A DNA stretch of 64,000 bases, from NCBI GenBank assembly GCA_030647905.1, contig JAUSJA010000027.1, positions 62,001-126,000 of the forward strand, given 5' to 3'. Under the pieces are notes generated by a model that saw nothing but the letters and a program-made list of their open reading frames with translations, was not told the origin of the DNA and did not search any database. The position numbers and the translations under genes are program-made. Positions 43,217 to 60,246 of the stretch are shown here, in pieces. Source of the stretch: Gemmatimonadaceae bacterium (GTDB taxonomy: Bacteria > Gemmatimonadota > Gemmatimonadetes > Gemmatimonadales > Gemmatimonadaceae). Positions within the stretch are counted from its first letter, which is position 1. Each line of letters opens with the position of its first letter.

Positions 43217-43717
43217 ATGCTGAGTCCGAAGCTGCAAGGCGCCCTCAACGACCAGATCAACGCGGAACTCGGCTCCGCCTACCTCTACCTGGCGATGGCC
43301 GCCCACTTGGAAGCGTCCAACCTCCAGGGCTCGGCCCAGTGGATGCGACGGCAGGCCCGCGAGGAGGTATCGCACGCCATGAAGATCTTCGACTTCGTGA
43401 ACGATTGCGATGGCCGGGTTGTGCTGAAGGCGATTCCTGAGCCGCAGGCCGAGTTCTCGTCCACCGTCGAGATCTGGGAGTCGACGCTGAAGCAAGAGCG
43501 GGGTGTGAGCGCAAGCATCCACGCCCTGTATGCGCTTGCGTCGCAGGAGAAGGACTACGCGACGCAGACGATGCTGCAGTGGTTTGTCACCGAGCAGGTG
43601 GAGGAGGAGAAGACGGCGAAGACGATTCTCGAACAAGTCAAGAGGATCGGGCCGTCCAACTCGGCGATCTACTTCCTGGACCGCCACCTTGGGAAAGATG
43701 CGGAAGCCAAGAAGTAG
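43217..43717 (+). CDS. ftnA: Bacterial non-heme ferritin
   Basis: 166 residues. All ferroxidase-centre residues of the bacterial FtnA type line up by position: Glu17, Glu50, His53, Glu94, Gln127 and Glu130. It stores iron as a 24-mer. The start ATG at 43217 is preceded by GGGAGA at seven bases; the longer frame from 43127 contains the tandem repeat and is not ferritin-like. It lies about 2.4 kb from a large minus-strand iron/redox cluster, and may add storage to that iron physiology. Confidence 0.95.
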   Translation: MLSPKLQGALNDQINAELGSAYLYLAMAAHLEASNLQGSAQWMRRQAREEVSHAMKIFDFVNDCDGRVVLKAIPEPQAEFSSTVEIWESTLKQERGVSASIHALYALASQEKDYATQTMLQWFVTEQVEEEKTAKTILEQVKRIGPSNSAIYFLDRHLGKDAEAKK

Positions 43718-46149: not shown

Positions 46150-46686
46150 CTACGCAGCGGGCTTCGGGTGCCGGATCTTCGCCCAGCGCTCCTCGAAGTT
46201 GAACTCCTTGAAGGTCGGGCTCTTTTCGTTGTGGCAGGAACGGCACTGCCGTTCAATCGCGGCCTTGTCCTCGTGCGGGGTCATCCCAGCGGCAATCGAG
46301 AGTGCCTTGTCCTTCATGACCGACATCTTCCGGTACGCCGATCCCGGGCCGTGGCAGGCTTCGCACTGCACGCCGAGCTTCCGGTGCTCGGGCTCGCTGC
46401 TGCGCATCGTGTGGCACTCCAGACACTCGGGCGCGTCCTTCGCCGGCACCGCAAGACCCTTGGATTTGGCGATCTCATCCGCGCGCGGCGTCGACAGCGT
46501 GTTGTACGCTTCCGCGTGCTTCGACTGCTTCCAGATGCCGGCCTGGTTGCCCGATTTCTCCGACTTGTGGCACATGACGCACTGCTCGACGCCGACGTAG
46601 CTGCCCACTGACTTCTCCTGCGCCAACGCGGCGCCGGGAAGGAGCGCGAATGTGACGCCTACGATCCGAAAAATACACCGTGTCAC
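46150..46686 (-). CDS. Tetraheme cytochrome c (c554-like), periplasmic
   Basis: 178 residues with a signal peptide (about 1-23, ALAQ). Four CxxCH heme sites are visible: CVMCH (36-40), CLECH (88-92), CEACH (108-112) and CRSCH (148-152), in the spacing of the cytochrome c554 family; extra histidines (such as His57 and His101) may serve as axial ligands. It should carry electrons in the periplasm. The GTG at 46686 follows AGGGGGA. The gene lies 40 bases downstream of the sensor kinase in the minus-strand cluster that contains a cytochrome-porin and Feo genes. Confidence 0.93.
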   Translation of the reverse strand: MTRCIFRIVGVTFALLPGAALAQEKSVGSYVGVEQCVMCHKSEKSGNQAGIWKQSKHAEAYNTLSTPRADEIAKSKGLAVPAKDAPECLECHTMRSSEPEHRKLGVQCEACHGPGSAYRKMSVMKDKALSIAAGMTPHEDKAAIERQCRSCHNEKSPTFKEFNFEERWAKIRHPKPAA

Positions 46687-46726
46687 GTGATCCCCCTGGT
46701 CGTTTGATTGGACGTACGATGAAAGT

Positions 46727-48214
46727 TCAAGTGGCGGCCGCGTCCGCGGTTGGCACCACCGCCGGGAACTCAAGCCGTACCGTCGTGCCGTGCCCCACCG
46801 CGCTTTCGATGCGGGCGTTACCACCGTGCAACTGCATGATGGACTGCACGATTGCCAATCCCAGTCCGGCTCCGCCGGTGACGCGTGCCTGCCCCTCTTC
46901 GACCCGATAGAATCGTTCGAAGACGTGCGGCAGATGGGACGTAGAAATGCCGGGCCCCGTGTCGCTCACTCGCACCTCCACGCCACCGTCAACTTTTTGC
47001 GTAGCGGTCATCGTCACGCGGCCCTCGTTCAGCGTGTAATTGAGCGCGTTGGCTAGCAGATTACTTACGGCCTGCCGGAAGAGGACGGAATCGCCATTGA
47101 GCCAGGCGTCACCCTCGCACTCCACGCCGATATGGCGCTCGGCGGCGAGTGCTTCATAGAAGTCGCACACGGCATCCAGCTCTCGCCGGACAGGAAAGCG
47201 CGTGTGTTCCACGGCGTGGTTGGGATCCTCAGCGCGCGCGATGAAGAGCAGTCCGTCGATAAGCCGCGACAGTCGCACCAGTTCCTCGAGGCTCGATCCA
47301 AGCACCTGCTGGTACTCTTCCGGGGTTCGCGCGCGCGCCAGCGCCACTTCGGCCTCGCCGCGCAGGTTGTTGATGGGGTTACGAAGCGCGTGCGCAAGGT
47401 CGGCTGAGAACTGGGAGAGGCGGGTGAATGCGGCCTGCAGGCGATCGAGCATGGCGTCGAAGTCACTGGCCAGTCCGCGCAGTTCCGTGGGCCACGGCCG
47501 CTCGTCGCAGAGCCGGGCGTCGAGCCGGCTGGCGGATATGGCCTGCGCGCGGCGCGAGATGTCGTTGACCGGCTGCAGTGCGACGCGCGCGACCACCACG
47601 CCCACCGCCACCGCCGCGAGCAGGCCCAGGCCGAGCACCGCGATCAGCTTCGCGCGGTAGTCCGCAAGGATTTGCGTCGTAGCCGAGACGTCCAGTGCCA
47701 CCTGCAGCTGGCGGTACTCGGCGCCGACTCCTGTCGCTGTGCCGGTAGCGGCGAGCAGCAGATAGCGGTGGTCGTCGCTTGCCTTGCACGCCGAACACTC
47801 GTCCGGACCGACCGGCCCGCTGGTCGGCGGTGGAAAGGCCGACGACGGGACGAGCGTGTCCATCCCCGGAGTCTCGAGAAGGGTGACGCCACGGCCGTCG
47901 ACGATCCGAAGGTAATACTGCAGCGGGCCTCCCTCGCCGGCCTCGTGCTCGATCTCGCTGGAGAGCGCGTCGGCGCTGGTGGGGTATTGCGCCACCAGGT
48001 GACGCAGCACCAGCAACTTGCTCGCCACGAGCCGCCGGTCCTGTCGGTGCAGTTCACGGATGAGTCCCCAGTACAGGAAGCTCGCGGCGATGAGCAGGAG
48101 CGCGACGGTTGATCCAGCGTAATGTTGGGTCAGTCGGCCGGCGATTGACCACGGCCGGCGCGCGCGCGTACCGACAGTGCCCTCGTGCGGTGGGCTACTG
48201 TTCGTCGAGGACAT
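46727..48214 (-). CDS. Sensor histidine kinase with unusual H-box
   Basis: 495 residues: membrane helix (about 33-53), a periplasmic sensor domain (about 55-185) with Cys140-x2-Cys143, a second helix (about 187-210), HAMP linker, dimerisation/phospho-acceptor helix with His275 ([14 protein letters not shown]) and a catalytic ATPase domain ([17 protein letters not shown]). The H-box lacks the Glu normally directly after the His and has Asn in place of the usual Thr, so phosphatase or kinase balance may differ. It overlaps the response regulator gene by 20 bases. Likely signal: periplasmic redox or metal state, given the C-x2-C and the neighbours. Confidence 0.92.
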
Positions 48215-48866
48215 ACCCGACTCCGCGCACGGTCCGAATGAGCTTCAGGGGAAACGGATCGTCGACCTTCGTCCGGAGCCGGCGCACCGCGACGTCCACG
48301 ACGTTGGTGTCGCTGTCGAAGTTCATCTCCCAGACCAGCTCGGAAATGAGCGTGCGCGACAGCACCTCGCCTCGCCGCCGAACGAGCAACGAGAGCAGCG
48401 CGAACTCCTTGGGCGTGAGATCGAGACGCTGTCCGGCGCGCGATGCGCGGTGCCGGAGAATGTCGAGCTCGAGGTCGGCGACGGTCAGCGTCTCCAGCTG
48501 CCGGCTCGGCCCGCGCCGCAGGATCGATCGGATGCGGGCGAGGAGTTCGGAGAACGCGAACGGTTTCACCAGGTAGTCGTCGGCGCCGCCCTCAAGCCCC
48601 TTGACCCGGTCGACCACAGTGTCGCGGGCCGTCAGAAAGAGCACGGGCGTCTGGCGGCCGGCGCGGCGCAGGGACGTGAGCACCGACCATCCATCGCGGC
48701 CGGGCATCATCACGTCGAGAACGATGAGGTCGTAGTACTCGCTCAGCGCGAGGGACAGCCCGTTATCGCCATTGAGCGCCACGTCAACCACGAAGCCGGA
48801 CTCAGTGAGTCCGTGGTGCAGGTAGTCGGCGGCCTTGCGCTCGTCGTCCACGATGAGAATGCGCAT
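48195..48866 (-). CDS. OmpR/CusR-like response regulator
   Basis: 223 residues. Receiver domain with Asp7-Asp8, phospho-acceptor Asp51, Thr79 and Lys101; winged-helix effector (about 125-220) ending [10 protein letters not shown]. The closest style is the heavy-metal regulators CusR/IrlR. Its end overlaps the kinase start by 20 bases, so they are a true pair. It sits 128 bases downstream of the cytochrome-porin gene and presumably controls it and the iron-transport genes. Confidence 0.93.
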
Positions 48867-48994: not shown

Positions 48995-50275
48995 CTAGAA
49001 GGCCCACGTAAGCTGGCCGAACAGCCTGCCATCCGTGTACTTCGTCGTGCCGGCGGTCGAGATGCCGCCATTGAGGTAGGTGTTCTTCAGCGTGTACTCG
49101 AGATTCCAACGCGCGCCGGACTTCTCGCTCTGGAAGAAGTAACCGTTCACGCCGAACATGATCATCGACACTTCATTGCTCTTGAGGTCGGTGTTCGGAT
49201 CGAGGCGGTCGTAGCGGGTGTACACGCCGTACTTCTCGTTGAAGTTGTAGTCCGCCAGCGCGTAGTAGCCAGCGTTGTTGGTCTTGTTCCCGGCCGCATT
49301 CATCGTCTCTTCGCCGGCAAAGTATGTGCCGACCACGCGCCAATTATCGCGCACGAAGCGGCCGACGACGCCGGTCTTGTTGAATGCGTCCTTGAACACG
49401 ATGTCGGTGCTGGGATCCTGCTTGGTCTTGTAGTTGGAGAATTTGCCGTTGTAGCGCATCACGCCGATGCCCGACGCGTTGTCGTCGAGGTTCACCAGCG
49501 CGGTCGCGTAGAAGTCCTTGTCGCGGTCGGCGTCGAGCGAGTTCGTAGTGGACGCATCCGAACCGTTCAGCGCGCCGAGCGAGACGTCGAAGCGTTTGTG
49601 AATGATCGATGCTTCGAGCCCCTGCTGGCGGGTGAACGGGCGGTAGGTGTTGCTGTTGCCAGCCAGCGCCTCATTCAGCACAATCGCGCGCTGCTCGGCG
49701 CTGCGCGCGCCGACGCCGAACACGTGCATCAGCTCCGGCACGATCGAGCCGGCCCGGACCTTCAGGAACGCCTGCTCGCCGCTGCCGATCGGTGCGTTGT
49801 ACTGCAGGAACGCCTCGGCCAGCTTTTTGCGCGACGCGTCACCCTGCACGATGTTGCTGCCGGACGTCGAACCGGTGTTCTCACTCAGGTAGATCTCGGC
49901 GAAGTACGACAGGCGGTTGCTGAGCGCGCCGCCGCTGTAGATGGCCATCGAGTGTAGCTCGAACTGCGTCAGCGCCCGGTTCGCGTACAGGTTCCCCGTG
50001 CGCGCGGCGTCCCAGTGGTCGTTGGTCAACCGGGCCTTGAACAGGAGGCTGAAGTAGTTCTCCAGTTTCTGGTCCTTCTCGTTGAACTTCAGCGCTTCGG
50101 ACCGGTGCCCGTTCTTCAGGAAGTCCAGCCCTTCCTTGGTGAGCTGGTTGGTTGGCGTGGCGTGGCACATCGAGCACGACACGCCGAGCTGACGCGACCA
50201 CGCAGGAATTGCGTGGAGGTTAGCAGGTGCGAGCAGCGCGACCAACGCAATTAGTGCCAATGCATGTCTTTTCAT
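48995..50275 (-). CDS. Monoheme cytochrome fused to outer-membrane barrel (Cyc2-like)
   Basis: 426 residues: a signal peptide (about 1-22, LHA), directly followed by one heme site (SRQLGVSCSMCH, Cys34-His38), then about 370 residues of alternating amphipathic, aromatic-rich strands ending in a terminal Phe (LFGQLTWAF), as in an outer-membrane porin. The stretch A-x-P-x3-RQ-x-G-x2-C-x2-C-H before the barrel is close to the heme signature of Cyc2 iron oxidases, which have one heme plugged in a porin barrel; the later Pro-x-Leu-x3-Phe-Gly part of that signature is not kept. Location in the outer membrane is inferred. It lies in an iron/redox cluster; electron transfer across the outer membrane is the leading guess. 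Confidence 0.82.
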   Translation of the reverse strand: MKRHALALIALVALLAPANLHAIPAWSRQLGVSCSMCHATPTNQLTKEGLDFLKNGHRSEALKFNEKDQKLENYFSLLFKARLTNDHWDAARTGNLYANRALTQFELHSMAIYSGGALSNRLSYFAEIYLSENTGSTSGSNIVQGDASRKKLAEAFLQYNAPIGSGEQAFLKVRAGSIVPELMHVFGVGARSAEQRAIVLNEALAGNSNTYRPFTRQQGLEASIIHKRFDVSLGALNGSDASTTNSLDADRDKDFYATALVNLDDNASGIGVMRYNGKFSNYKTKQDPSTDIVFKDAFNKTGVVGRFVRDNWRVVGTYFAGEETMNAAGNKTNNAGYYALADYNFNEKYGVYTRYDRLDPNTDLKSNEVSMIMFGVNGYFFQSEKSGARWNLEYTLKNTYLNGGISTAGTTKYTDGRLFGQLTWAF

Positions 50276-50467
50276 GAAAGCCGGTCCGGTTGCGGGTGAG
50301 TGCGGGAGCGTACGCAGTCGGTCGGTGCTCCCAGTGCGAATAAGTCTGTGACCCGCTCGCTGACCGGAGGATGACCGGGAGATTACAGTTCTGTCATCTG
50401 GCGTGGCGTGCACTCCGCGCCCTGCTCTCATTGTGACCCGGTGCGCCCATCAGCAGTGCGCCTCGCC

Positions 50468-50611
50468 TCAACCGCATCCCGGCCCGCACCCGCCGCCGCC
50501 GCGCGGGCGTGCCGCGCCCGAGACGGCCCTCCACGCGCGCCGCGCGAGAAACGCGGCGCACATCAGCACGATGGCCGCCGCGATCACGCGCTGTACCCAC
50601 ATGGCGGTCAC
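50468..50611 (-). CDS. FeoB-associated Cys-rich membrane peptide
   Basis: 47 residues from the GTG at 50611 (alternative ATG at 50602). One membrane helix (VIAAAIVLMCAAFLA) and a C-terminal tail ending GGGGCGPGCG match the small FeoB-associated Cys-rich proteins. It overlaps the feoB stop by four bases and has GGAGG six bases upstream of the GTG. Presumed helper of Fe(II) uptake. Confidence 0.8.
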   Translation of the reverse strand: MTAMWVQRVIAAAIVLMCAAFLARRAWRAVSGAARPRGGGGCGPGCG

Positions 50612-52608
50612 GCGCCACCTCCGATGCCGAGGGCGAGACCACCCCGGTACACCAGCAGCCCCGCGCCGTAGGCGAGGCCGAGCATGTAGGCGAACTGGAG
50701 CGCCGCCCAGCCCGCGCCGCGCACGCCGCCGCCCATCTCGCGCATGGTCACCGCGATAGTGCTCGTGCACATCAGCGCGAAGACGTAGAAGCACATCAAT
50801 CCGATCGCGACGAGCGGCGTGTACACGGCCGTCCCGGTGGCGGGATTCCGCTCCGCGCGCAGGCGGGACGCCAGCGCCTGCGGCGCACTCTCCGTGCTCG
50901 AGACACCGTAGATCGTCGCCATCGTCGACACGAACACCTCGCGAGCGGCGAACGAGGCGACCATCGATACCCCGATCTTCCAGTCGTATCCGAGCGGCCG
51001 CACCGCCGGTTCGATCGCGTGGCCGATGCGGCCCAGCGCAGATTGCTCGAGCCGCGCTTCCTGCGACAGCACCCGTTCCGCCGCCGGCTTGGGATAGCTG
51101 GCCAGCGCCCAGAGCAGCACGGAGATCGCGAAGATGATTGTGCCCGCCTTGCGCAGGAACAGTTGCACCCGTTGCCACACGGACGACGCGAGCACCCGGG
51201 CGCTCGGCCAACTGTACGATGGGAGCTCGATGATCAGTGCCCGCGTGGCCGAACGCAGCAGCGTGCGCCGGAAGACCGCCGCCGCCGCCAGCGCCGCCAC
51301 CGTGCCGAGGAGATACATGCCGAGCAGCGTCAGTCCCTGCAGGTTGAACAGGCCCGCCACGGTCGTGGCCGGAACGAATGCGCCGATGAGCAGCGTGTAG
51401 ATCGGCAGGCGCGCCGAGCAACTCATCAGCGGCAACACCATGATCGTCGCCGCGCGCTCCTTCGGCTGCTGGATGGTGCGCGTCGCCATGATCGCCGGCA
51501 CGGCGCAGGCGTAACCGGAAATGAGGGGAATGAAGCTCTTCCCCTGCAGCCCGAGCGGACGCATGAACCTGTCCATCACGAACGCCGCCCGCGCCATGTA
51601 GCCGGAATCCTCGAGGAGTCCGATGCAGAGAAAGAGCACGGCAATCTGCGGCAGGAACACGACGACGCTGCCGACGCCCCCGAGCGCTCCATCGACGAGC
51701 AGGCTGCGCAGCTCGCCCGCCGGCAACGCCGCGCGCAGCAGATATCCCGCCGCGTCAATGAGCGCCTGCACCGCATCGCCGAGCGGGCGAGCCCAGGTGA
51801 ACATCACCTGGAAGACCAGCGTCATCAACGCGAGGAAGATCAACGGACCCCACACACGGTGCAACGCGATGGCGTCGACGCGGTCGCTGACCGCGTGCGC
51901 CGTCCGCGCGCTTCGGGACACGGTGCGCTCCAGCACCGAGCCGATCCACCGGTAGCGACGGTCGGCGTCGGCGCCCGCAGACGCCATGTCGTCGCCGCCT
52001 GTCGACGACAGCGCGCCGCTTGCCCCAATCGTGGAGAGCGGCAACGACGGCGCGAGGGCGATCGCGTGCCGCAGGCGATCGATGCCCTCGTGCCGCGTCG
52101 CCACCACGGGCACCACCACGGCGCCCAGTTCGTGGATGAGCGCGGGCACGTCCACCTGGATGCCGGCGGCGGCGAGGCGGTCGGCGCGATTGAGCGCGAT
52201 CACCGTCGGACGTCCGAGCTCGAGGATCTGCGTCGCCAGATACAGGTTGCGCTCGAGGTTCTCGGCATCGACGACCACGACGATCACGTCGACGGGCGGC
52301 ACTCCCGGCGCCGTGCCGTTGAGCACATCGAGCGCGATCGCCTCGTCCGGCGACTCCGCGACGAGGCTGTAGCTGCCGGGAAGGTCGATGACGATCACCC
52401 GCGACGCACCGTCGTGGGTATAGCCGCCCTCGACGCGCTCCACGGTGACGCCGGGAAAGTTCCCGACGCGTTGTCGCATACCCGTGAGTGCGTTGAACAG
52501 CGTGCTCTTCCCGCTGTTCGGGTTCCCGATGAGCGCCACCCGAAGCGCGGCTGGCGCCGGCGGCGGCGGCAACTTTCTGGCGCGCAGGGCCCGGCTGGCG
52601 GTGGGCAC
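50608..52608 (-). CDS. feoB: Fe(II) transporter FeoB
   Basis: 666 residues, shorter than the ~770 of enterobacteria. The N-terminal G domain shows G1 GNPNSGKST (28-36), G3 DLPGSYSL and G4 NRAD; the membrane part contains the two Gate motifs (SGYACAVPAIMATR and SCSARLPIY) with their conserved Cys. It moves Fe(II) into the cytoplasm. It starts with a GTG inside the last codon region of feoA. Unusual: the cytosolic domain has a Gly/Pro-rich N-terminal extension. Operon with feoA and the Cys-rich peptide. Confidence 0.96.
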   Translation of the reverse strand: MPTASRALRARKLPPPPAPAALRVALIGNPNSGKSTLFNALTGMRQRVGNFPGVTVERVEGGYTHDGASRVIVIDLPGSYSLVAESPDEAIALDVLNGTAPGVPPVDVIVVVVDAENLERNLYLATQILELGRPTVIALNRADRLAAAGIQVDVPALIHELGAVVVPVVATRHEGIDRLRHAIALAPSLPLSTIGASGALSSTGGDDMASAGADADRRYRWIGSVLERTVSRSARTAHAVSDRVDAIALHRVWGPLIFLALMTLVFQVMFTWARPLGDAVQALIDAAGYLLRAALPAGELRSLLVDGALGGVGSVVVFLPQIAVLFLCIGLLEDSGYMARAAFVMDRFMRPLGLQGKSFIPLISGYACAVPAIMATRTIQQPKERAATIMVLPLMSCSARLPIYTLLIGAFVPATTVAGLFNLQGLTLLGMYLLGTVAALAAAAVFRRTLLRSATRALIIELPSYSWPSARVLASSVWQRVQLFLRKAGTIIFAISVLLWALASYPKPAAERVLSQEARLEQSALGRIGHAIEPAVRPLGYDWKIGVSMVASFAAREVFVSTMATIYGVSSTESAPQALASRLRAERNPATGTAVYTPLVAIGLMCFYVFALMCTSTIAVTMREMGGGVRGAGWAALQFAYMLGLAYGAGLLVYRGGLALGIGGGA

Positions 52609-52898
52609 TAGACCAGGGGTCGCACGGTGATGGCCATCGCGACCGATTCATCGAGCGCCAGCCGCGCGCCCTGCACGTCCAGCAGAATGCCATTTCGCGT
52701 GCCGACGACGGCCACGGAGGCTCCTTCGAACACGCCGAGCGACCGCAGGCGGCGTGCCTCGAGTGAAGGACAGCCGAGGCAGACGATGAGCGCCCGCCAT
52801 CCGGACGCGCACGAGCCGAGCGGACAATGTTCGCAGCTCGCCTCCGCTGCAGTGGGCCCGGCGCTGGCGGGGCGAAACCAACTAAGGAGTCGCGTCAT
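52608..52898 (-). CDS. feoA: FeoA-like protein with Cys-rich N-terminus
   Basis: 96 residues. The C-terminal SH3-like FeoA domain (about 35-95) reads ARRLRSLGVFEGASVAVV...GARLALDESVAMAI. Before and around its start are five cysteines in C-x2-C, C and C-x2-C arrangement (ASCEHCPLGSCASG, VCLGCP), which is not usual in FeoA and could bind a metal or Fe-S centre. The ATG at 52898 is the likely start; an ATG at 53030 would add a 44-residue extension containing a Val-Glu-Arg repeat. It overlaps the feoB start. Confidence 0.85.
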   Translation of the reverse strand: MTRLLSWFRPASAGPTAAEASCEHCPLGSCASGWRALIVCLGCPSLEARRLRSLGVFEGASVAVVGTRNGILLDVQGARLALDESVAMAITVRPLV

Positions 52899-52973
52899 GA
52901 CACGCCGCCACCAACGGCGCTCGCGGGTGCCAGAGCCGCGCGAGCGCCCAGGCTGCTGCACCGCCGCGTCGCC

Positions 52974-53009
52974 GACGCGCTCGACGCGCTCGACGCGCTC
53001 GACGTGCTC
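52974..53009 (-). repeat. Four 9-bp tandem repeats upstream of feoA
   Basis: GACGCGCTC occurs three times in a row and a fourth time with one change. It falls in the region before the feoA start codon, where a fur or other operator could be expected, but has no known regulator's pattern. It encodes a Val-Glu-Arg repeat if the longer feoA frame is translated. Confidence 0.8.
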
Positions 53010-53097
53010 GAACATCGGCACGTCCGTCATGCCGTAGAGCCTCGCGATCTCCGGGCGCCCGAACCCGCCCGAGCGCGCCGTGCGATGATCCCGCGAA

Positions 53098-58683: not shown

Positions 58684-60051
58684 CTACAGCACCCGCATGA
58701 AGGCCACCAGGTCCTTCTTCTCCTGTTCATTGAGCTTCAATTCCAGGACGAGGTTAAAAAACTCCACCGCGTCCTCCAGCGTCAACAGGCGGTCGTCGTG
58801 CAGGTAAGGAGGCGAGTCCTTGATGCCGCGCAGCGGGAAGGTCTTGATCGGGCCGTCGGCCGACGCTTTGCGACCGTTGATCGTGACCTCCTTGAAGAAC
58901 CGCTCCACCTTCAGGTTGTGCATGGTGTTGTCGGTGTAATACGGCGGGGTGTGGCAGCTCGCGCACTGGCCCTTCCCGGAGAAGATTCCCTGGCCGCGCA
59001 TCTCGCTCTCGCTGGCTTTGGCAGGATTGAGCTTGCCGAAGACGTTTAGCTTCGGCGCGGGCGGGAAGTCGAGCAGCGCCTGGAACTCCGCCATGAAATG
59101 CACCTGGCTTCCGCGTTCGAGGACGTTGGTGCCTTTACGCGCCGCGTCGGCCGGGATGCCGTCGAAATAGGCGGCTCGCTGCTCGAACTCGGTGAAGTCC
59201 TCCACGGTCTTCATCGCCCGTTGCGAACCGAACAGGCGCTGAATGTTCAGGCCCCGCAGCGATGGCGTGTCGATCCGATGCCGATGCTCATTCGGCCGAA
59301 TATCGCCAACCGTGTGGGTGGAGGCGTTCGTATGGCCGTTGGCGTGACAGTCGAAGCAGGCCACGCCCTGAGAGGCCTTCAAGCTGCGTCGGTCTTCGAT
59401 GGCGTTGAACTGCTGCTGGGGAAACGGCGTGACCAGCAACCGCAATCCTTCGAGTTGCTTGGGATTGAGGATGTCCTTGAACAACTCGTTGAAGTTGCTG
59501 AGCGTCACGAGTTTCCCTTGCGAGACGTCGCCCAGATCCGGCCTTGTTGTCAGATAGATCGGTGCCGGGAACTCGGGCAGGAAATGATCCGGCAAGTCGA
59601 AGTCAAGGTCGAAGCGAGTCAGATCCCGATCGGTCTGCTTCTTCGTTTCCTCGATTAGGAATTTGGGGAAGATCATACCGCCCGCTTCATGGTGGGGATG
59701 CGGCAACGGAAGAAAGCCGGCCGGCCATAGCTGCTTTTCCTTGACTTCCTCCGGCGACAAGGCGGCGAGTTTCTCCCAGGTCCCCATTCCCGCGGGCAAC
59801 TTGACGCGCACGCCGTCTTGCACCGGCTTGCCGCGCGACATGGCCGTTCCCTTGGCCGGCCGGTCAGCGAGGTCGTAGCGCTGCGCGAGCAAATCCTGTT
59901 GGCGCTTCGCGAACGTCGGTTTCTCCGCTTGAAGGCGTTTTACCAGGGTGGGGAAGTCTTCAGCGACGACCGAAGGTGTCTGCGCGAAGCTGACAACCGC
60001 CGTGGCGGGCAATGCGGCCAGGAACCATCCCATTCGAGACCAAACTGACAT
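58684..60051 (-). CDS. Diheme cytochrome c peroxidase-like protein
   Basis: 455 residues with a signal peptide (about 1-24). Two CxxCH heme sites, CFDCH (232-236) and CASCH (363-367), lie in the second half, as in the CCP/MauG superfamily, but with an N-terminal extension of ~200 residues and no clear peroxidatic motif; a short form of the N-terminal extension contains HPHHEAGGMIFPKFL. It may be a periplasmic peroxidase or electron-transfer protein. Good ribosome site AAGGAG. It forms a unit with the cupin gene and is cargo of the tRNA-Lys islet. Confidence 0.88.
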   Translation of the reverse strand: MSVWSRMGWFLAALPATAVVSFAQTPSVVAEDFPTLVKRLQAEKPTFAKRQQDLLAQRYDLADRPAKGTAMSRGKPVQDGVRVKLPAGMGTWEKLAALSPEEVKEKQLWPAGFLPLPHPHHEAGGMIFPKFLIEETKKQTDRDLTRFDLDFDLPDHFLPEFPAPIYLTTRPDLGDVSQGKLVTLSNFNELFKDILNPKQLEGLRLLVTPFPQQQFNAIEDRRSLKASQGVACFDCHANGHTNASTHTVGDIRPNEHRHRIDTPSLRGLNIQRLFGSQRAMKTVEDFTEFEQRAAYFDGIPADAARKGTNVLERGSQVHFMAEFQALLDFPPAPKLNVFGKLNPAKASESEMRGQGIFSGKGQCASCHTPPYYTDNTMHNLKVERFFKEVTINGRKASADGPIKTFPLRGIKDSPPYLHDDRLLTLEDAVEFFNLVLELKLNEQEKKDLVAFMRVL

Positions 60052-60246
60052 GGCGGACTCCTTCTGAATGTGTCGAAGTGATGAGACTTTCAATCGTATA
60101 TCCCGTCCGGAGGCGGCGCAGTCGGGGAAATCGGCTCTCAGGGGGAAGTCGCGGCGCAGTCGGTGAGGTTCTCTTGAGAGCCCGCTTCGCTCACCAACCG
60201 CATAGATAGCCGCACAGGGGGTTCCCCACTGCGAGCCTAAGGTTAG

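Follow-up and report, generated by a model that had tools for sequence, protein, structure and literature searches.

The stretch of Gemmatimonadaceae DNA analyzed here (64,000 nucleotides, hereafter the window) carries on its minus strand, in this order, feoA, feoB, a 333-bp interval with a CusR-type promoter box, a cytochrome-porin gene, a response regulator, a histidine kinase and a tetraheme c554-like cytochrome (Table 1). The porin reading frame opens with an ATG at 50275, and its translation begins with a signal peptide that has an LHA end and finishes at the C-terminus LTWAF. A preliminary description made from the sequence had noted one CxxCH after the signal peptide and a terminal Phe, and both hold: a single CSMCH follows the LHA end, and Phe closes the protein. 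A sequence search found full-length orthologs with 44–63% identity in other phyla, so the reading frame did not arise by chance. The porin matched no Pfam or NCBIfam family over cut-off, and a sequence search of the PDB with it returned no clear relative.

Table 1. Coordinates and supporting evidence for features of the cytochrome-porin locus (positions in the window)
Feature	Position	Strand	Basis
Cytochrome-porin gene, 426 aa, signal peptide residues 1-22	48995..50275	-	ORF and full-length orthologs
Single heme-binding motif CSMCH, residues 34-38	50162..50176	-	Invariant in 53/53 rows compared
Cytochrome domain, ~38 residues, IPAWSRQLGVSCSMCHATPTNQLTKEGLDFLKNGHR	50096..50209	-	In register with Cyc2-like relatives; pLDDT ~78-88
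His57 of porin	50105-50107	-	Within cytochrome domain
16-stranded barrel	48998..50053	-	AlphaFold2 models; OprP match
Invariant His108, strand 2	49952-49954	-	Predicted topology
Invariant His184, loop between strands 5 and 6	49724-49726	-	Predicted topology
CusR/AgrR-type box ATGACAGAACTGTAAT (as read on the minus strand), 107 bp upstream of porin ATG	50382..50397		Exact match to ATKACANNNNTGTMAT
Response regulator, CusR/CopR type	48195..48866	-	TIGR01387, 338 bits vs cut-off 279.2
Sensor histidine kinase, CusS/CopS type	46727..48214	-	TIGR01386, 382 bits vs cut-off 292.55
Periplasmic tetraheme cytochrome, c554-like, four CxxCH (true start probably nearer 46700)	46150..46824	-	PF13435 E 9e-14
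feoB, ferrous iron importer, co-oriented, 333 bp upstream of porin	50608..52608	-	TIGR00437, 507 bits vs cut-off 315.65
feoA	52608..53030	-	PF04023 E 1e-8

The closest points of comparison are the Cyc2 proteins of Acidithiobacillus ferrooxidans and Mariprofundus ferrooxydans PV-1 (PMC8406198), which share with this porin a signal peptide, an N-terminal CxxCH, a predicted 16-strand OprP/OprO-like barrel and a length of more than 365 residues. Two general criteria for Cyc2 are a single N-terminal CxxCH in a protein of at least 365 residues, here CSMCH at 34–38 of 426 aa, and a C-terminally fused 16-strand OprP/OprO-like porin, which the predicted structure also contains (16 strands, OprP Z 24.6). 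Cyc2 further carries two signatures, A-x-P-x-F-A-R-[QK]-[TY] five residues before CxxCH and P-x-L four residues after it; the published Cyc2 tree excluded any sequence that lacked P-x-F-A-R-[QK]-[TY] (PMC8406198). The porin has neither, reading A-I-P-A-W-S-R-Q-L before the heme and N-Q-L after it (mostly W-Q-L in the porin clade), with the L alone kept. Throughout the clade, the pre-heme motif is W-S-R, W-A-R or F-G-R (the last in Bdellovibrionales) in place of F-A-R, and the proline position of P-x-L is occupied by N, W, M or Y in the core clade. A match to the Cyc2 pattern before the heme, as claimed in the preliminary description, is therefore partial: A, P, R and Q agree, but the F, A and T/Y of the published motif differ.

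That description had also taken the P-x-L-x3-F-G part after the heme to be replaced. We find instead that the region is homologous and in register with Cyc2-like proteins without gaps, so that the apparent replacement is a set of substitutions and not a different module. Relative to the longer Cyc2-like form CHxxxxPxLxxxGxxFxxxG[YF], the porin retains L45, G49, F52, G56 and R58 and has His in place of Y/F57; the post-heme motif of the core clade is CHATPTxQLxxxGLxFLxxGHR. The porin clade and 27 Cyc2-like relatives show little or no variation at A22, P24, R28, C34, C37, H38, G49 and F52, and all but one keep L45. Within the cytochrome domain, the porin and Cyc2 share the invariant A-x-P, R, CxxCH, L, G and F. 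What sets the core clade apart are His57, His108 and His184, invariant in 20/20 sequences; in the 27 relatives the same columns hold F or Y at 57, Pro at 108 in 23 and mostly Arg at 184. The core clade also differs from these relatives by many invariant charged residues in the barrel strands and loops.

We judge it improbable that the porin is a genuine Cyc2 with ordinary Cyc2 function that has diverged, for instance within Cluster 3. Architecture, size and fold are indeed alike and the cytochrome domains are homologous, but both Cyc2 signatures fail and the three family-specific histidines belong to a separate clade (support 100/99 in a tree of the porin family and its Cyc2-like relatives). 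Of the two options raised in the preliminary description, a separate monoheme porin family thus fits better than a divergent Cyc2 cluster. Because it fails both motifs, the clade would have been filtered out of the published Cyc2 catalog. By those motifs the porin is not Cyc2; its family is almost certainly a sister to Cyc2.

The mature porin, modeled with AlphaFold from a 35-row alignment, gave pLDDT 84.6, pTM 0.85 and exactly 16 strands. This model supersedes an earlier, weak fold (17 rows, signal peptide kept, pLDDT 64), which also had 16 strands. The top structural match of the predicted barrel was OprP (Z 24.6, rmsd 3.2 over 310 residues), with OprO tied. These phosphate porins (2o4v, 4rjw and 4rjx, Z 24.4–24.6) are only ~13–16% identical to the protein, however, and have no heme domain. 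The topology would place His108 in strand 2 and His184 in the strand 5–6 loop, a region that folds into the pore in general porins. The preliminary description had proposed that a one-heme cytochrome is joined to a barrel of the outer membrane and called for a structure prediction. The models support this: both return a 16-strand barrel, and the predicted fold is OprP/OprO-like, as for Cyc2. Keffer and others likewise describe the Cyc2 barrels as OprO/OprP-like with 16 strands (PMC8406198).

The genome that contains the window encodes a second, canonical Cyc2-like cytochrome-porin (FPAFARQTGLACSSCHFQKYPAL; G000:C25, locus L002; L077 5742-10635). This paralog has the same architecture and is 39% identical to the porin over the first 56 residues, but it keeps FARQT and P-x-L, and no CusR-type box was found at L002. 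It lies downstream of iron-sulfur, NrfD (PF03916) and cytochrome c genes that look like a quinone-linked electron chain; a search of plasmids with it gave weak matches only, and none were found in phages. In the window's phylum, cytochrome-porins of the Cyc2-like type, having both A-x-P-x-F-A-R-[QK] and P-x-L, are common (loci L003-L041): the window protein has matches at E <= 1e-6 in 37 of 395 genomes there, and the tree contains at least four groups.

The porin-regulator-kinase order of the window recurs in ten Opitutaceae-type loci (L042, L044-L049, L051, L074 and L075), with identities to the window of 57–63% for the porin, 75–87% for the regulator and 49–56% for the kinase. In the more distant Acidobacteriota loci L093-L097, a regulator and kinase also adjoin the porin (48–52% and 32–36% identity), and in the Bdellovibrionota loci L053 and L054 a two-component system of another type lies beside it. 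The window's regulator is 57% identical to E. coli CusR. Kinases over the TIGR01386 cut-off were found in only 2 of 31 relatives' genomes, the window's own and G038. No two-component system tied to a Cyc2-type gene was reported in the open-access literature searched, and this linkage, together with a CusR-type box and the three histidines, distinguishes the porin from Cyc2.

The box was first found on comparison of upstream regions, as a palindrome common to them. It matches the AgrR box ATKACANNNNTGTMAT footprinted in Cupriavidus metallidurans (PMC7380067) as well as a box, ATGACAATTTTGTCAT, that our analysis located between E. coli cusR and cusC. Within the 64 kb of the window it is the only match to ATKACANNNNTGTMAT at up to one mismatch (0.13 expected). 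At the same tolerance, the box occurs once per locus in 11/11 loci with a CusR-type system, the window included, at 103–196 bp upstream of the porin, or 354–455 bp upstream where a small cytochrome gene comes first; it was found in 0/15 searched loci without such a system. G038 serves as a useful positive control for this search: there, genes of the same two-component family stand ahead of genes for an outer-membrane protein and RND-type efflux, and the interval that separates these from the kinase contains the box with one mismatch. Together, the system-bearing loci, the remaining loci and G038 give good support to direct control of the porin by the neighboring regulator, and we consider it very probable that the porin is governed through this box by its own two-component system. 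The porin belongs to a distinct family of fused cytochrome-porins, of the same kind as Cyc2, and is a real and conserved feature. Its linked metal-type two-component system and operator were both absent from the preliminary description.

CusR-type regulators are best known for copper and silver. A CusR-regulated porin might serve copper or silver detoxification by oxidizing or reducing copper at the outer membrane. Regulator and kinase both score over the cut-offs of heavy-metal families, the box equals the AgrR/CusR box, and the same two-component family stands beside RND-type efflux genes in G038. CusRS, CopRS and AgrRS (PMC7763554, PMC10100754, PMC7380067) share the family models and the DNA box but act on efflux or copper-resistance genes; the target in the cassette is a cytochrome-porin. 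Against a copper role, no copper efflux genes were seen in the cassettes, and the neighbors are cytochromes, not cuproproteins. The Cu(I) ligands of CusS and CopS are His42, Phe43 and His176 in CusS numbering (PMC7763554, PMC10100754); all three are missing from 11/11 cassette kinases, in which these columns hold E/S/G/N, L and T/N. The periplasmic domain of the 11 kinases instead has an invariant E-[IV]-E-H-E. The efflux-linked kinase of G038 lacks the three copper ligands too, so ligand loss by itself does not exclude copper sensing; E-[IV]-E-H-E, however, is missing from the G038 kinase. With this evidence on both sides, we regard a copper or silver role as very doubtful.

A Glu/His site of this kind would be better suited to a metal such as Fe(II) than to Cu(I). 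The Fe-sensing ExxE motif was rejected as a candidate, as E-A-x-E occurs in some cassette kinases but is not invariant; the open-access literature searched yielded nothing on the RExxE motif of BqsS. A heme-bearing sensor was likewise rejected, the kinases having no CxxCH. The window's kinase is the only one among the cassette kinases with a CSACK cysteine pair, in a periplasmic loop (47700-47800, minus strand).

Candidate electron partners lie next to the porin at several loci. A c554-like homolog, 51% identical to that of the window, directly follows the porin in G312, and a gene for a small monoheme protein lies directly upstream of it in L042, L047-L049, L074 and L075. L043 has a single gene run of porin, monoheme cytochrome c and six-heme NapC/NirT protein, and in L094 a NapC/NirT protein is encoded ~6 kb from the porin. 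Just beyond the porin and c554 genes of G312 (L076 6350-12371) are 7-, 10- and 16-heme cytochromes and an unnamed 500-aa protein, possibly a porin-cytochrome conduit. Elsewhere in the window, the gene at 58684-60093 (minus strand) encodes 469 aa that include CFDCH and CASCH, two CxxCH motifs, and have no Pfam match; the product is perhaps a cytochrome c peroxidase-like diheme protein.

NapC/NirT proteins more often serve outward electron transport, and their presence as neighbors makes outward flow a serious rival to an inward one. Respiratory electrons would then leave quinol, travel along NapC/NirT-type and periplasmic cytochromes and reach acceptors that enter the barrel, such as humics or Fe(III) in soluble or chelated form. 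The gene arrangements in L043 and L094 and the multiheme cytochromes of G312 agree with such export, as does the lack of RuBisCO in most hosts. On the other side, NapC-type proteins are able to run both ways, a narrow barrel with a single heme is ill suited to reaching solid acceptors, and the nearest characterized relatives, Cyc2, oxidize Fe(II) (PMC8406198). We rate export as rather unlikely.

Iron is favored as the substrate of the porin by the known activity of Cyc2, by feoAB directly upstream and by a ferritin gene at 43217-43714. The last (plus strand, PF00210 E 3e-40) is ~2.4 kb away from the cassette on its cytochrome side, so that genes for iron storage and ferrous import stand on both sides of the cassette. 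Within the window's genus, feoB is uncommon, with only 2 of 19 genomes carrying it. Against an iron reading, feoAB was rejected as a constant partner, its linkage being limited to the window and one distant relative, an Armatimonadota locus with feoB near. No RuBisCO is encoded in 15 of the 18 carrier genomes, the window's own among them, which makes a Cyc2-like lithoautotrophic life unlikely for most carriers.

We propose that a sensor kinase with E-[IV]-E-H-E would detect a non-copper metal signal, probably Fe(II), and that metal-triggered phosphorylation of the regulator would then switch on the porin. A small reductant, most likely Fe2+, would enter the charged barrel lumen and pass an electron to the heme. 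From there, the electron would move to a periplasmic cytochrome, which in the window may be the c554-like tetraheme protein; elsewhere the acceptor may be a small monoheme cytochrome, or a cytochrome together with a NapC/NirT protein. We consider it likely that the porin transfers electrons across the outer membrane, and a role in extracellular electron transfer is plausible. Fe(II) as the substrate with inward electron flow is closer to an even call, falling slightly short of one. As a whole, we lean towards reading the locus as an inducible one-heme outer-membrane electron conduit from a family sister to Cyc2.

The family is thinly scattered. Full-length relatives occur in Opitutaceae and other Verrucomicrobia (56–63% identity), Acidobacteriota (55–58%) and Bdellovibrionota (44–48%). 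Among sampled genomes, the porin was found in 2 of 395 from the window's phylum (the window's own and G312), 3 of 323 from the Opitutales-type group (centre included), 2 of 291 from the Bdellovibrionota group, with two weaker relatives, and 3 of 347 from the Acidobacteriota group, with eight weaker relatives. Within the window's genus, it is absent from all 18 of the other genomes. In the tree, the window and G312 form a pair (100/99) nested within the Opitutaceae group. This nesting and the patchy occurrence point to horizontal transfer of the porin cassette between phyla; no orthologs of the porin were found in plasmids.

More tentatively, and with some doubt, we suggest that this is a separate family with metal ligands of its own (His57, His108 and His184) and a sensor of Cus descent that now responds to Fe(II) or to some metal other than copper, spreading horizontally as a self-regulated cassette. 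If so, heterotrophs of several phyla would gain an inducible, non-Cyc2 source of electrons from extracellular metal ions. Cyc2 is a marker gene for neutrophilic iron oxidation, and since its catalog was screened by a motif that the porin family fails, members of the family would have been left out by design. Should these porins indeed conduct electrons through the outer membrane, the Cyc2 marker would overlook metal redox chemistry in their Opitutaceae, Acidobacteriota and Bdellovibrionota carriers. The linked two-component system and box offer a way in, as the inducing signal would point to the substrate.
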